NCBI GenBank assembly: GCA_030680835.1
Contig: JAUXUD010000027.1
Coordinates: forward strand, 62,001-126,000
From: Bacteroidota bacterium
Lineage (GTDB): Bacteria > Bacteroidota > Bacteroidia > UKL13-3
Direction of reading: 5' to 3'
DNA length: 64,000 nt
In this document: positions 34,115 through 41,899 of the stretch, one piece after another
Numbering within the stretch: the stretch's first letter is position 1
How the letters are laid out: the number at the start of each line of letters is the position of its first letter
Notes under the pieces: model-generated
What the model was told of the DNA's origin: nothing
The model's input: the letters and a program-made list of their open reading frames with translations, nothing else
The model's database searches: none
Program-made: the position numbers and the translations under genes

Positions 34115-35050
34115 TTACATTTGCTTATTTTTTTCTTCTTTCGCAAACATCATGGCCTGAATTTGTCTCATGGTTTTTTCCATGCCATCCGGACTGCCAT
34201 CAAGGAATATCACATTGCCCTTTCCGTATTCAGCAAAATTCTTAACCGCTTCAACCCACATGCTGAACAAAATTACATTGGTATCGAGGTTCGCCTGTTT
34301 CATTTCGGTAGCGGCCTGCGACATGCCTTTGGCAACAGCTTCACGGAATAATGCTACCCCTTCACCACGCAATAAAGCAGCTTGTTTTTCCGCTTCCGCA
34401 GAAATTTTAATCGCATTCCCTTCTGCTTCGGCGGCTTTTGTTTTAGTAATCAGCAAAGCCTGACCTTCATTTTCAGCGGCTGCTTTTAAATTGTTGGAGG
34501 CCACCACCCTGCTCATGCTCTCAATAATGGCCTGATCGAAGGTGATGTCATTGATTTGCAAATCCTGTAGATGATAACCCCAATCAGACAATACATGATC
34601 AATCTGGTCTTTCACAAAATCAACAATTTCTTTACGTGAAGCCAAAACCTCTGCCTGTTTTTTAGAAGCCACAAATGCCCGGATACTTCCTTCAATGGTA
34701 CGGATTAAAGCCTGCATCAAATCTTTTTCACTATAAAACTTGAACGCTACTTTTTGAATGGTTTCATCTTGCTTATCCAGCACACTAAACAGCAACATCG
34801 ATTTAAAATATACATTGGCCTGATCGATAGTAACCGCCTGAAATTCGAGTTCAACAGATTTGTTTTGAATAGAAATAATTTTATAAACCTGTTCGATAAT
34901 GGGTATTTTAAAATTAAACCCCGGAGGCAATATCCGGCGGTATTTACCAAACAGCGTAATCACGGCAACGGTTCCTTGTTGCACGGTTTGTATGGAAGAA
35001 AAAAGGATGATAACACCCAATAAAAGTAAACTTAAAAAATAGTATGACAT
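34115..35050 (-). CDS. SPFH/band-7 (stomatin-prohibitin-like) membrane protein
   Basis: A 311-residue protein with one N-terminal membrane helix (YYFLSLLLLGVIILFSSIQ), followed by the SPFH domain: VQQGTVAVITLFGKYRRIL, PPGFNFKIPIIEQVYKI, the strands up to ~residue 150, then a long charged helix (AEAEGNAIKISAEAEKQAAL) typical of flotillin/prohibitin family members. These proteins oligomerise into membrane microdomain rings and often partner with membrane proteases such as FtsH/HflK-HflC. No NfeD or protease gene is adjacent. It is transcribed alone, convergent with the ACBP gene. Confidence 0.88.
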   Translation of the reverse strand: MSYYFLSLLLLGVIILFSSIQTVQQGTVAVITLFGKYRRILPPGFNFKIPIIEQVYKIISIQNKSVELEFQAVTIDQANVYFKSMLLFSVLDKQDETIQKVAFKFYSEKDLMQALIRTIEGSIRAFVASKKQAEVLASRKEIVDFVKDQIDHVLSDWGYHLQDLQINDITFDQAIIESMSRVVASNNLKAAAENEGQALLITKTKAAEAEGNAIKISAEAEKQAALLRGEGVALFREAVAKGMSQAATEMKQANLDTNVILFSMWVEAVKNFAEYGKGNVIFLDGSPDGMEKTMRQIQAMMFAKEEKNKQM

Positions 35051-35167: not shown

Positions 35168-35878
35168 TTACTTATGAAACTCCGGTATGATATAAATTCC
35201 CGCTGAAAAGTAAAAGATGCCAACACTTACATTTCTTATATAACCTGAAGGCACTGTGCTGCTGCCCTGCTTAACTTTAGTATTAGATAAAGGTTTAGTT
35301 CCCTGATATTGATAGGATAATTCAAAAATTGCTCCCATTTTACCATTAAAAGGAATTCTGGCCCCATTGCTGATACAGAAAACATAGGCATAGTCAAAAC
35401 CACTTTGAACCGTAGTGGTTTCGATTGCAGGTGCTTGTCCCTGCAAAGAAGTTGAGGCTACCGTTTGAACTGAAGCATTTAAAATTTGTGTGCCGGCTAA
35501 GCCTGCACCTACACTGAAAAAATAATGATTATCAAAAATATTATACTGAAAATGCAGGGTGCTTCCAATAGACATAAATGGCCGGTAAGTGCGTTGGAGC
35601 ACTTTTTCATTAGCTACTTCTGTGGCAGGATTTGCATTGTAGATATAAAATAATTTTGACTGCAAGGCGTAGTTTCCAAAATGATCTTCCGCATAAACAT
35701 TCAACTGGTAACCGGAATTTTGAGATAAAACTGTTATTCGATCCGAACCTTTATCGCTATTTAAATTTACCTGATGCAATGCAAAATCAGGTCCGCCGCT
35801 CACACCAAATTCAGTTTGAGCACTGCACAAGTAGCACGATACCGTGAAAAACAAAATAATGATCAATTTACTTTTCAT
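35168..35878 (-). CDS. Unknown beta-rich envelope protein, module B copy 2
   Basis: A ~236-residue exported protein (signal peptide MKSKLIIILFFTVSCYLCSA-Q). The mature part is built of amphipathic strands rich in aromatic and small residues and ends in a strand-like YFSAGIYIIP, consistent with an outer-membrane beta-barrel-like fold; no named family is recognised. It is paralogous to the protein at 36640-37374 (shared EFGVSGG/EVGINIG start, YRPF/YKPF, NGARIPFN/NGVRIPFN, FELSYQ/LELSYI). I set the start at 35878, where the signal peptide begins; the longer reading to 35935 overlaps the upstream gene by more. At 35878 it overlaps that gene's stop by 11 bases, so the two are translationally coupled. 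Confidence 0.72.
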   Translation of the reverse strand: MKSKLIIILFFTVSCYLCSAQTEFGVSGGPDFALHQVNLNSDKGSDRITVLSQNSGYQLNVYAEDHFGNYALQSKLFYIYNANPATEVANEKVLQRTYRPFMSIGSTLHFQYNIFDNHYFFSVGAGLAGTQILNASVQTVASTSLQGQAPAIETTTVQSGFDYAYVFCISNGARIPFNGKMGAIFELSYQYQGTKPLSNTKVKQGSSTVPSGYIRNVSVGIFYFSAGIYIIPEFHK

Positions 35879-36395
35879 GCGTAATGCTTGGCTCAGGCCC
35901 TGAATTGAAGGCAACATTTTGGGGTAATAGCACAACCTTATGCGTACGGATCAGCTGAAATTGTGGAATAAGAAAGGCCCACAACGGACTGCTTGCCATA
36001 ATGGCTATTGCAGCACCCCTATCTCCGGTATAATTTCTATGGAGCAGCAATAAGGTACTGAAAACAGCTACATTGAATACGGTAATATAGTATACGGGTT
36101 GAAAGATTTTTCGTGATGTACGGTAAGGTTTAAATTGGATCGTATCTATGTTTTTATAAGCGTAAAATCCTGCCTTTTTAAAATAAAGTCCTCCCGAATC
36201 AAGCTCAGCGATCTGATCCTTGAATTTTATTCTTTGGGGTTCGCGTGTAATTACTGTAACATTGGTTTTATAGAACCTGATGCGATAATCTTGTTTTGTG
36301 ATACTGTCATACACATACACGTATTGTTCCTGAGCAACAACCTTTGAGGATATAATAATGAGGCCAAAAAATATCAAAAAAATAATTTTATTCAT
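35868..36395 (-). CDS. Unknown membrane protein, module A copy 2
   Basis: A 175-residue protein with signal peptide MNKIIFLIFFGLIIISSKVVA-Q, a compact extracytoplasmic beta domain (~24-95; YVYVYDSITKQDYRIRFYKT, GLYFKKAGFYAYKNID) and two hydrophobic helices (PVYYITVFNVAVFSTLLLL and IAIMASSPLWAFLIPQF). It is clearly paralogous to the protein at 37379-37918 through the segment V-Y-D-S ... Y-K-T-N-V-T-V ... K-N-I-D. No function can be assigned. It is the first gene of a tandemly duplicated A-B pair; the following B gene starts within its last codons. Confidence 0.75.
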   Translation of the reverse strand: MNKIIFLIFFGLIIISSKVVAQEQYVYVYDSITKQDYRIRFYKTNVTVITREPQRIKFKDQIAELDSGGLYFKKAGFYAYKNIDTIQFKPYRTSRKIFQPVYYITVFNVAVFSTLLLLHRNYTGDRGAAIAIMASSPLWAFLIPQFQLIRTHKVVLLPQNVAFNSGPEPSITHEK

Positions 36396-36639
36396 AAAGA
36401 ATATAATTTATATAATTTTATCAGGGTGTTTGAAGTAGTAAAAATTCTCAACATATTTGAACCTAATGAATAAGATTTCAATACTTACACAATAATTTAA
36501 TTACTTAAATACTTTAATGATTTTCTCCCCAACCACAGTTATCTCAGGATAATAAAAATACCTATTACCATGCAAACTGTTGAATAAATTTATTCATAAT
36601 CAAATGTAATAACAATTACTTGAAACTATTAATCGTTTT

Positions 36640-37374
36640 TTATGATTTAAGTTTGATTTTACCGATCCTATAATAGAGCCCTCCTGAAACACTAAATACA
36701 CCCGCGGTAATTTCTGTTTTTGTAAATGGTGTTACAGGGTTTTTCGCAATGCTTTCATTTATATAATATTTTACTAAAGGATTTAAAGTTTGAATAATAT
36801 ATGATAATTCAAGAGTTAATCCCAGGTTTTTATTAAACGGAATTCTTACTCCATTGTTAAAACAGTACACAGTAGCAAGGGCAAAATTACTTTCATAAAC
36901 ATATGTTATTGTTTTGGGTAAAGGAAACTGTGCATAATTATATTGATAAAGGGTTTGTATTGAATAATTCATAATTCTCGTTGAAGAAAAACCTAAACCT
37001 AAGCTAAGAAAATAAAAATTATTAAAAAAATTGAATTTTAAATTGCCGCTTCCTCCAAGAGAAACAAATGGTTTATAAACAGCCTGAATGATCGTTTCTG
37101 TAGCATAACAACTTCCATCCTCGTAACAATGCTCAAATGTTGGATCTGAAATTGTATTGTTGATATAGAATAATTTAACCTGAACAGCTACTACATTATA
37201 CCTTTTTTCAGCATTCAAGTTTATTTCAAAGCCTTTATTATTGTTTACAATTTCAGTACCTAACTTAGTTAAAATGACAGACGAATACCCGATATTAATA
37301 CCCACTTCTGTTTGTGCCCTTGATTGGTGGCATAATATAAAAAGGCCAATTATCAATTGAATACTTGCTTTCAT
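36640..37374 (-). CDS. Unknown beta-rich envelope protein, module B copy 1
   Basis: A ~244-residue exported protein (signal peptide MKASIQLIIGLFILCHQSRA-Q), paralogous to the protein at 35168-35878. It shares the same order of beta strands and landmarks (NNGVRIPFNKN, LTLELSYI, GGLYYRIG at the C-terminus). It looks like a small outer-membrane or surface beta-barrel, but no family is recognised. The start is set at the ATG at 37374, five bases after the stop of the A-copy gene (37379); the alternative start at 37398 would overlap it. Confidence 0.72.
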   Translation of the reverse strand: MKASIQLIIGLFILCHQSRAQTEVGINIGYSSVILTKLGTEIVNNNKGFEINLNAEKRYNVVAVQVKLFYINNTISDPTFEHCYEDGSCYATETIIQAVYKPFVSLGGSGNLKFNFFNNFYFLSLGLGFSSTRIMNYSIQTLYQYNYAQFPLPKTITYVYESNFALATVYCFNNGVRIPFNKNLGLTLELSYIIQTLNPLVKYYINESIAKNPVTPFTKTEITAGVFSVSGGLYYRIGKIKLKS

Positions 37375-37378
37375 TGTA

Positions 37379-37918
37379 TTAACGGAATGGGGAAACATTA
37401 CCTGACGATTTAAAAACAGCGCTTTTAGTCTTTATAACTTGTTTATGTGGAACTCTAAATCCAATAATTACCCGAGGAATTACAAATGCCCAAATTGGAC
37501 TTGTTAAAATCACAAAACCAGTCAATCCAATCATATATCGGGTCTCCTTATAGTGTTTGAAAGCTGTATAATATGTTAAGTATAATACACCATTTAGAAC
37601 GGATAAATAATAAATACGTTGAAAAATACTTCGTGCTAAGTGATAAGGTATAAAACTTACACTATCAATGTTTTTATAAGAATAGAACCCCTTAATTTCA
37701 AAATATATACCATTTGAATCAATAGCAATAATTTTATCATTAAACTTCTCCTTTTCAGGCGTGTATGCAAGCACTGTTACATTGGTTTTGTAATACCTGA
37801 TGCAGTAATCATGTTTTGAGGTACTATCATACACATATGCAAATTGTTCCTGAGCAAAAATTTGTGAACATATACCTGTAGCTAAAATAAAAAATACAAT
37901 AGATAATTTGCTCTTCAT
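37379..37918 (-). CDS. Unknown membrane protein, module A copy 1
   Basis: A 179-residue protein with signal peptide MKSKLSIVFFILATGICSQI-FAQ, an extracytoplasmic domain (FAYVYDSTSKHDYCIRYYKT, GIYFEIKGFYSYKNID) and two membrane helices (YYLSVLNGVLYLTYY and MIGLTGFVILTSPIWAFVIP). It is the paralogue of the 35868-36395 protein and begins the 5' A-B pair. The upstream spacer holds the 124-bp palindromic repeat (37965-38088), about 47 bases before the ATG. Confidence 0.75.
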   Translation of the reverse strand: MKSKLSIVFFILATGICSQIFAQEQFAYVYDSTSKHDYCIRYYKTNVTVLAYTPEKEKFNDKIIAIDSNGIYFEIKGFYSYKNIDSVSFIPYHLARSIFQRIYYLSVLNGVLYLTYYTAFKHYKETRYMIGLTGFVILTSPIWAFVIPRVIIGFRVPHKQVIKTKSAVFKSSGNVSPFR

Positions 37919-37964
37919 TTTTAAGGATTATTCAATTATTAATTAGTGTCTATCCATATAGTCA

Positions 37965-38088
37965 GGAGTCTGAGCTAGAATGTTCTCTGGCAAGGCTTGC
38001 GAAGTCACCAAAAAGCGCAGTGTACTAGTGTACATGAGCATTTTTGGGGATGAGCATAACGCAGCCAGAGGACATTATAGACAGACTC
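37965..38088. repeat. 124-bp imperfect palindromic repeat, copy 2 (inverted)
   Basis: Reverse complement of the element at 4497-4620, same length with about nine differences. Ends GGAGTCTGA and TCTGTCTATAATG; the core GTACACTAGTACA is near-palindromic. The element's last bases supply the TAG stop codon of the gene at 38088-38669, suggesting insertion at that gene's 3' end or loss of its original stop. Confidence 0.8.
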
Positions 38089-39644: not shown

Positions 39645-41759
39645 TTAGTATATGTTAGCCGCATTGCGGTAACCAGTTCCGTTTGTATACCAGTCGTTGT
39701 AAAGGGTACCACCACTGCTTACCCAGGTTGCGAACTTTAAATAAGCGGTATTGATGTCTGCTTTTTCGACTGGATAGCTATAGTTTGCAGGAATATTGAT
39801 GGCCCATGGATATCTTCCGTCGTTGCTTACATAAGTATCTCCGTTTCCAATATTGGTCGCATCATTATAGCTTCCAAATAAACTGGTATTGGCTAAATCG
39901 GTTGGCAACTGTCCGGGTAAATGAATTTCATATCCTCTTCCAAAACCACTGGTTCCATTCCAGATAAATGGATTGTATCCGCTTAATCCGAAACTTGCTA
40001 AACTCGGTGCGCCACTTACGTTAAATGCTACAGTATAAGTTATTGATGAACTGGTTGGCCATGCAGGAACGGTATTCCAGTTTGTCATTGCAGCACGCAT
40101 ATCGTTGAAGATTACAAGTACTGCTTTGGTTTGGCCTGCTTCTAAAGTTGCTCCGGTTACACCACTAACGCTTGAACGGTTTATTGGGAACTGCACTGCA
40201 AATCCATTATTAAAACTGCCACCTGTTGCACGTAATACATAAGTTGCTTCAACTCTAACTACATTATTGGCTGCATTGGTAATAACATTATAATTGTATG
40301 CAATAACCACATCATTTAAATCATAATCTCCTTTTGATGGCCATAAATCTTCAAAGGCAACACTTGAGGTTCCGTAAGGATTGCAAAATGCTTTATTGGG
40401 GTCGCTTGGGTAACAATCATTTGCATCGCAAACACCGTCACCATCAGTATCCGTTACCGGAGGAACTCCGTTACCTGCAGGGTTACAAGCACTGATGGGA
40501 ATAAACAGACTGCAGCTTTGTGAGGCACCACCACTAATGCTTGCGTTAAATAATGCTTCAATGCCATTTAAATCGCAATAGTTTTGTGCACCGTTTACCA
40601 AGCCCGAAGTATTTCCTTTTGAGTGGTCAATTACTTTAATCAATGAAGTAGTTCCCATACCGGTAATGGTTCCGTTTACCTGGATATCCAAAGTATGCAG
40701 CATGGCACCATTGTATTGTTTGAATACCTGATTTGAACCTCCGTCAACAGTTGATTCCTGATCACATTTTATATAACCGTAGTTATGGAAAGTTCCATTG
40801 TTCTGGAAATCGTCGTGTACGATTAATTTACAATTATTCGTAAATGTTGCGTTAGCACTATTGATTAATTTTTCTGCTACTTCTATTGAACCATTATTTG
40901 TTATAACACAACTTCCATTGGGATTAAAGTCTTTACCAAAAGTACAGGTTCCGTTATTTTCGAAAGTTGCTGTTGAGTTCACATTAAAGTTGCTTCCGCT
41001 AACCACTGTAACAGTTCCATAATTGGTAAATGAACCTTCGTCAACCGGAGTTGTTCCGGTAAAAGTTATGTTACCTGTTCCGGTAATAATTAACTGAGCA
41101 GTACTGCTGCTAAATTCAAGATTATCGATGGTACCGGTTCCACAAATACGAACAATGGCTGTACCGTCAATGGTTAGTTTGCTGATGTTAATAGAACTAC
41201 CGGTTAAACATTTTGTTCCACTGGTATAAGTTAAATTTCCACTTGCATTGTATACAGTAGCAGTACAACCTGTTGAACAATCCGGGCCGGGACCTGATTT
41301 GCCTAATTTAACATTTGCACTTGCAGTAAAAGTTGCATTCACCGCGTTATTAATAATTGAAACTTTTTCAATGGTTTTGGATTGATCCGGTGACACCTTC
41401 ACCAAATAAAATTCTGTGATGATGTTCGCTGTATTTATTTTTGCTTCAAAAGGTTTTGAAACGGATACAGGACCTTCAGCCAATTTGATTCCGCCATTAC
41501 CAGGATTTCCATTATAAACCATCACCTTGTGAATGGTTCCGCCAAAACGATTGTCAGTTGAGCTGATTTTTACATTTACATTGCGTGACATCTCCCACTT
41601 AAATCCTGCTGGTACTTTAATATCACTCATTTTATCTGCTTTACTGTTTATAGCAGTAATGTTTCCATTCGTAGAGGACTCATTATTTGTTATGAGCTCT
41701 TTCTTGCAAGCAGTTAATGCTAATGTGGCCAGGGCTAAGAAAATAATTAAGTTTTTCAT
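39645..41759 (-). CDS. LruC-domain lipoprotein
   Basis: A ~704-residue exported protein. The lipoprotein signal MKNLIIFLALATLALTAC (lipobox LTAC) is followed by Ser/Thr/Asn-rich beta-helix-like strands (~150-440) with many repeated T-x-N-G-T-I-T-N words. The C-terminal ~250 residues form an LruC domain: SVAFEDLWPSKGDYDLNDVV, RATGGSFNNGFAVQFP, FGRGYEIHLPGQLPTDLA, NDGRYPWAINIP and VEKADINTAYLKFATWV. LruC proteins are known Bacteroidota surface lipoproteins of unknown exact role. A TDTDGDGVCDANDCYP segment resembles a calcium-binding thrombospondin-type repeat. The start is the lipoprotein ATG at 41759. Confidence 0.86.
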   Translation of the reverse strand: MKNLIIFLALATLALTACKKELITNNESSTNGNITAINSKADKMSDIKVPAGFKWEMSRNVNVKISSTDNRFGGTIHKVMVYNGNPGNGGIKLAEGPVSVSKPFEAKINTANIITEFYLVKVSPDQSKTIEKVSIINNAVNATFTASANVKLGKSGPGPDCSTGCTATVYNASGNLTYTSGTKCLTGSSINISKLTIDGTAIVRICGTGTIDNLEFSSSTAQLIITGTGNITFTGTTPVDEGSFTNYGTVTVVSGSNFNVNSTATFENNGTCTFGKDFNPNGSCVITNNGSIEVAEKLINSANATFTNNCKLIVHDDFQNNGTFHNYGYIKCDQESTVDGGSNQVFKQYNGAMLHTLDIQVNGTITGMGTTSLIKVIDHSKGNTSGLVNGAQNYCDLNGIEALFNASISGGASQSCSLFIPISACNPAGNGVPPVTDTDGDGVCDANDCYPSDPNKAFCNPYGTSSVAFEDLWPSKGDYDLNDVVIAYNYNVITNAANNVVRVEATYVLRATGGSFNNGFAVQFPINRSSVSGVTGATLEAGQTKAVLVIFNDMRAAMTNWNTVPAWPTSSSITYTVAFNVSGAPSLASFGLSGYNPFIWNGTSGFGRGYEIHLPGQLPTDLANTSLFGSYNDATNIGNGDTYVSNDGRYPWAINIPANYSYPVEKADINTAYLKFATWVSSGGTLYNDWYTNGTGYRNAANIY

Positions 41760-41899
41760 GGTTTTAATATTTCCCTCGGTATTGCCAAAAGGAAGCCAGG
41801 ACATGTATATGTCTGATTATTAGACCATAAAAATAATTGGAGCTTGATGGATTAATCCCAAAATGAAACAAAAAGACCCGAATTTGTATTTAAAGATTC

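Follow-up and report, generated by a model that had tools for sequence, protein, structure and literature searches.

Tandem copies of a two-gene cassette in a Bacteroidota genome pair a predicted inner-membrane protein with a predicted small outer-membrane barrel

The window analyzed here, a stretch of 64,000 nucleotides on contig C3 of a 4.3 Mb Bacteroidota genome in 104 contigs (G000), carries a two-gene cassette twice in tandem. In what is a well-supported anatomy, drawn from structure models together with gene order, the first gene of each copy, A, would encode a periplasmic protein anchored in the inner membrane, and the second, B, an outer-membrane beta barrel. Two hypothetical genes become, in this way, a defined and portable two-gene unit. 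By sequence, neither the cassette nor the family of A-like proteins appears to have a name in the libraries searched (Pfam, NCBIfam, PADLOC, and PHROGs), and a literature search on the pair found nothing, as judged from titles and the beginnings of abstracts. What seems to be new is the pairing of a gene for a small outer-membrane barrel with a gene for an unnamed inner-membrane protein, the predicted fold of B being already known.

Two paralogous copies of the A-B pair

All four reading frames are open on the minus strand, with ends exactly where the first-pass annotation had placed them. Along that strand they follow the order A1 (37379–37918, 179 aa), B1 (36640–37374, 244 aa), a 244-nt spacer (36396–36639) with no match in Rfam, A2 (35868–36395, 175 aa), and B2 (35168–35878, 236 aa); an Rfam search of the whole region to E = 0.1 found no RNA element. 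The two genes of each pair had been described as nearly overlapping, and so they are: 4 nt separate the A1 stop from the B1 start, and the A2 and B2 frames share 11 nt. B1 has a second in-frame ATG upstream, at 37398, and it is the ATG at 37374 that gives the protein a leader peptide. Judged by eye from the sequence, a hydrophobic leader ending in AQ opens all four proteins (SAQ in B2, RAQ in B1).

The proposed paralogy holds for both genes, with A1 and A2 42% identical over 178 aa (E = 5e-46) and B1 and B2 32% identical over 242 aa (E = 2e-38), a resemblance that lies far beyond chance. Estimates of dN/dS of ∼0.23 for A1/A2 and ∼0.5 for B1/B2 are consistent with constraint, dS being near-saturated and the measure hence a weak one.

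Several features of the surroundings were recorded. Just upstream of A1 (37950–38085) lies a 136-bp intergenic repeat that forms a hairpin (predicted fold −51.5 kcal/mol); it has 32 matches in the genome, most of them near full length and at 78–98% identity, and its ends resemble short inverted repeats, giving it a REP- or MITE-like character. A gene at 39645–41804 (minus strand) encodes an exported protein of 719 aa that contains a DUF4842 domain (E = 1.1e-52). A defense or phage origin of the four cassette proteins was considered and rejected, as PADLOC matched none of them and PHROGs gave nothing credible.

Recurrence and co-duplication of the pair in related genomes

An initial contig scan with A1 and A2 as queries found no relative. 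Searching 19 genomes of the same genus with A2 returned, in addition to its own two loci, a pair of weak matches in G010 (E = 5.6e-4 and 7.3e-4), each an A gene that shares 4 nt with a leader-bearing barrel gene, and a third, partial match in G017 that contains stop codons. A profile built on the A genes of G000 and G010, four in all, was run against 64 genomes of the taxonomic family and matched 15 of them (E up to 1e-3). Two of its 20 rows (L020 and L021) were discarded by eye as A-like matches inside unrelated reading frames. Nine of the matched genes belong to A-B pairs, found in 6 of the 64 genomes and 4 of 14 genera (two pairs each in G000, G010, and G024; one each in G030, G035, and G044), and the remaining matches are A-like genes without B, single or in A-A arrays.

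Each of the nine pairs consists of an A gene and then a leader-bearing barrel gene, with the frames overlapping or a few nucleotides apart. A precedes B in all nine, and the frames overlap in eight, by 4, 4, 4, 4, 8, 11, 17, and 17 nt (the two 17-nt overlaps, both in g8 genomes, require B to start at an inferred TTG), the ninth being A1-B1 with its short gap. The five A genes outside G000 and G010 (those of G030, G044, and G035 and the two of G024) were reached with a profile from G000 and G010 only, at E values of 2.4e-23 to 2.6e-7, and all five have a leader-bearing barrel gene directly next to them. The co-occurrence of A and B, which the first-pass annotation had proposed to survey, is conserved in these nine pairs from 6 of 64 genomes. 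In G010, one locus (L007) carries an extra tandem B copy, A-B-B′, in which B′ is 41% identical to the neighboring B. No third gene is common to the A-B neighborhoods that were read, and the neighbors differ between loci, which argues that the pair itself is the unit; on this comparison of genomes, A-B appears to be a real one.

Searching with a B profile gave 10 strong matches, all beside an A (one of them being B′ after B), 9 of the 10 already in the profile, and no further strong B in 62 genomes, which is the part of this otherwise circular search that informs. Four weak matches (L058–L061, E = 1.3e-4 to 7.0e-4) are taken as generic barrels: they are barrel genes, and the stretches read around them contain no adjacent A.

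In FastTree phylogenies, A1 clusters with A2 at a local support of 0.998, and B1 with B2 at 1.0, which suggests that the pair was duplicated as one unit. G024 carries a tandem duplication of its own, in which the two A genes pair (1.0) and the two B genes pair (1.0), and G030 and G044 group in both trees (0.978 for A, 0.951 for B). The A and B trees agree on these paired branches (the window pair, G030 with G044, and the G024 pair), the deep branches being poorly supported and A too diverged for the wider tree to be read. By these groupings, the cassette was copied as a whole on at least two independent occasions, in the genome of the window and in G024. The description of the region as a tandem duplicate of a two-gene unit is borne out by this co-grouping and by the conserved pairing.

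One possible reason for such a history is surface variation: B would be targeted by phages or predators and kept as diversifying tandem copies, and A would prevent harm from mis-exported B. B diverges faster than A, tandem copies are found in two genomes and an extra B in a third (the A-B-B′ locus), and the pair is patchily present and sits in different genomic places; between the near-identical g8 loci, dN/dS is ∼0.66 for B (14 nucleotide differences) and 0.34 for A (7 differences). Such counts are, however, too small for a selection test, and the pair has no link to phage or defense families, so that we regard this reading as improbable.

Predicted structures of A and B

The AlphaFold2 model of B2 (5 sequences; mean pLDDT 68.1, pTM 0.63) is an 8-stranded barrel spanning residues 21–230 of 236, with strands at residues 21–41, 44–67, 70–82, 101–114, 119–132, 162–176, 181–194, and 216–230. 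Foldseek gave 72 matches at E up to 1e-3 (best 1.3e-6), among them OmpA, NspA, OprG, OmpW, Ail, and OmpX, and VIA-align gave Z scores of 18.8 to a Legionella Dot/Icm machine porin, 17.8 to OmpA, 17.6 to NspA, and 17.2 to OmpW. With eight antiparallel strands in the model and an export leader seen by eye, B2 belongs among the small 8-stranded outer-membrane barrels, and B1, a leader peptide followed by a barrel, is placed there by homology to B2. The model points to B being an 8-stranded outer-membrane barrel of the OmpA/NspA/OmpW shape, which is an ordinary fold, and agrees with the earlier description of B as a beta-rich exported protein.

At the sequence level, B1 and B2 do not match Pfam OMP_b-brl (PF13505), and two of the nine B proteins touch PF13505 below its curated cut-off (best E = 3.5e-5, 24.5 bits versus 28.7). 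Among solved structures, sequence searches found no credible relative (B2 best E = 0.34; the B profile reached only E = 0.39, to OmpX). The first-pass annotation had stated that neither family is recognized. This stands for A, which is unnamed in Pfam and NCBIfam, but not for B, whose barrel fold is a common one (Z = 17–19 to OmpA, NspA, and OmpW); an OmpW-like identity had been named as counting against novelty, and B comes close to it, both by its OmpW score and by the two sub-cut-off contacts with PF13505.

Profile comparison matched B1/B2 to the B proteins of G030, G044, and G010 (E = 8.6e-7, probability 91.5) and detected no kinship of the G024 B proteins to the other Bs (E = 0.067 against the B1/B2 group and 0.005, at low probability, against the other group). 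By sequence, the partner always seems to be a small barrel-like exported protein, with a single B family shown for only part of the set, and the partner of A may be “some barrel” rather than one conserved family.

The AlphaFold2 model of A1 (5 sequences; mean pLDDT 63.7, pTM 0.50) opens with a leader helix, followed by a beta domain (residues 26–93) and two long helices (residues 96–122 and 127–154), with block pLDDT values of 76–90 in the beta domain (residues 31–90) and 39–60, that is, low confidence, in the hairpin helices. On the DNA, the small beta barrel of Sm/Hfq shape (residues 25–93), predicted to be periplasmic, corresponds to 37640–37846, and the hydrophobic two-helix hairpin (residues 96–154), predicted to be an inner-membrane anchor, to 37457–37633, both on the minus strand. 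At a hydropathy threshold of 1.4, residues 129–147 of A1 and residues 100–118 and 128–146 of A2 are flagged; across nine A proteins, both hairpin helices are flagged in four and one helix in the other five. The earlier assignment of A as a membrane protein is supported: its C-terminal hairpin probably fixes A in the inner membrane, and the leader would place the beta domain in the periplasm.

Foldseek found no match for A1 at E up to 1e-3, and all 50 rows among the matches listed are Hfq (E = 0.33–0.73). VIA-align aligned A1 to chains of Hfq, U6 snRNP Lsm, and Gemin6/7 at Z = 5.4–6.0, mostly over ∼58 residues (58–60 for Hfq); a Z score below 8 may mean merely a common arrangement, and that of A1 is ∼6, a high Z being, in our judgment, not expected for a 65-residue domain. 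We describe the beta domain of A as Sm-shaped and do not call A an Sm protein, the match being weak and at the level of the fold. Pfam and NCBIfam contain no significant model for A1 or A2, and Pfam none for the nine A proteins aligned in A5; this includes the Hfq/LSM family models, sought in both libraries for A1 and A2 and in Pfam for the nine. Sequence searches against solved structures gave a best E of 0.11 for A1 and no match up to E = 10 for the A profile.

These structures bear on the proposal of the first-pass annotation that A and B act as a complex, considered here as a trans-envelope one that would serve uptake, signaling, or secretion. The overlapping genes, the conserved order, and the co-duplication would all suit such a complex. 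In the B2 model, however, the barrel takes up residues 21–230 of 236 and leaves no periplasmic domain, A would expose only ∼70 residues to the periplasm before its hairpin, so that by size neither protein should bridge the compartment, and no third gene is shared by the loci. Without a periplasm-spanning part in A or B, a direct complex of the two is doubtful, and the proposal as a whole seems quite unlikely.

A-like proteins beyond the pair and a possible role for A

When 395 genomes from across the class were searched with a broad profile built on 19 A-like proteins, at least 51 of them, in at least 35 of 196 genera, gave matches (E up to 1e-5), these counts being lower bounds because scoring covered only ∼9 candidates per genome. 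The search brings to light a family of A-like envelope proteins that has no name. The genes are mostly solitary or in A-A tandems and lack B. None of 29 loci around broad-profile matches has a B of the kind described above overlapping an A; A-A tandems were found at L090, L098, and L113, and two loci (L104 and L108) showed no A-like reading frame by ATG-only gene calling. The genome of the window has four A-like matches: A1, A2, one on contig C39, and a weak one on C19 (E = 3.3e-6).

Individual loci offer further detail. The match on C39 is an A-like tandem without a barrel gene (166 + 157 aa; L117:5081–6056, minus strand) that adjoins a methionyl-tRNA synthetase-like gene, named by eye, and similar tandems occur in other genera of the family; G044 has a tandem array of at least five A-like genes. 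A 223-aa barrel-like gene lies directly upstream of the A-A pair at L098 and a 305-aa exported gene follows an A at L099, neither with a Pfam match and neither with demonstrated kinship to B. In another family, solitary A-like genes in G130 (L086) and G089 (L103) have a response-regulator gene, identified by eye, 53 and 40 nt downstream, respectively.

An SPFH/Band_7 gene was considered as a further partner. In the window, such a gene (34115–35050; Pfam E = 2.3e-31) lies, like the cassettes, on the minus strand and begins 117 nt past B2. The genome has four SPFH genes, one more of which lies ∼3 kb from the A-like pair on C39, and at the homologous loci L027 (G044) and L089 (G036) A-like genes lie directly downstream of an SPFH gene. 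Over 12 genomes, 4 of 32 SPFH genes are within 5 kb of an A-like gene, a post hoc count in genomes picked for having A-like genes. We keep SPFH/Band_7 as a lead only, because just one of the seven genomic A-B loci has such a gene nearby.

Since A-like genes commonly occur without B, A does not need B, and this argues for an older role of A’s own. A could then be a self-standing envelope protein of a widespread Bacteroidia family, active in stress sensing or membrane organization, that merely shares an operon with a barrel responding to the same condition and has no physical or assembly link to it. The abundance of A-like genes, alone or in A-A tandems, in at least 51 of the 395 class-level genomes and the presence of some beside unrelated genes, such as the response regulators (L086 and L103) and SPFH/Band_7, speak for this reading; the tight A-B spacing in nine of nine pairs and the two independent duplications of the unit instead suggest matched production, and we hold the self-standing reading to be somewhat unlikely.

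The strict gene order, the overlaps, and the repeated co-duplication lead us to favor matched production of A and B, and because neither protein should span the periplasm by size, a helper role or a contact-free shared regulon is likelier than a lasting A-B bridge. The reading we put forward, tentatively and as a possibility, is that A is an inner-membrane-anchored periplasmic factor that is co-produced with, and serves, a small and fast-changing outer-membrane barrel, B. Coupled translation would make the two proteins together. A would be exported by its leader, leaving a small beta barrel of ∼70 residues in the periplasm and a C-terminal hairpin in the inner membrane, and might be oligomeric, as other Sm-shaped domains are. 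B would cross the periplasm and fold in the outer membrane as an 8-stranded barrel whose periplasmic turns are short and whose surface loops are long. From the periplasmic face of the inner membrane, A could act as a dedicated helper of B in handling, dosage, or quality control, and B could perform a surface job, such as binding or adhesion, through its fast-changing loops. Duplication would then leave the cell with two differing surface barrels, each with its matched A.

Against a helper role for A, the frequency of A-like genes without B suggests that by ancestry A is not only a helper of B, the B proteins of G024 show no detectable kinship to the others by profile comparison, and the model of A is of moderate confidence, its Sm match being weak. 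More speculative, and rather improbable in our estimate, is a broader picture in which A represents a large Bacteroidia family without a name, whose exported and membrane-anchored members, Sm-shaped, form rings at the periplasmic side of the inner membrane, such rings being recruited here as dedicated stations for small outer-membrane barrels, the ring-barrel cassette being amplified in tandem to diversify the surface. The A-B pairing provides an easy way to ask by genetics whether helpers in the inner membrane are important to particular outer-membrane barrels of Bacteroidota.

Among known systems, A is closest in predicted shape to the Sm/LSm/Hfq fold, residues 25–93 of the A1 model weakly matching chains of Hfq, U6 snRNP Lsm, and Gemin6/7. 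Unlike Hfq and LSm proteins, A is predicted to be exported and membrane anchored, matches none of their family models, and gives no sign of an RNA role. The Sm-type fold is best known from RNA biology, and if the Sm-like shape of A is true, that fold would here be used outside the cytoplasm and anchored to a membrane. The unnamed family DUF6232 (PF19744), on which a literature search by that name returned no papers, is weakly matched by 4 of 10 distant A-like proteins, along the beta domain and the helices after it (best E = 1.8e-4, 22.3 bits versus a cut-off of 27.4), whereas A1, A2, and the rest of the A proteins aligned in A5 gave no match to this family. B, finally, resembles the small barrels OmpA, NspA, OmpX, and OmpW (PF13505 and relatives) in its leader, its eight antiparallel strands, its short periplasmic turns, and its long outer loops, and differs from them in lying below the curated Pfam cut-off, in its low identity to the solved barrels listed, and in having its gene paired with A.
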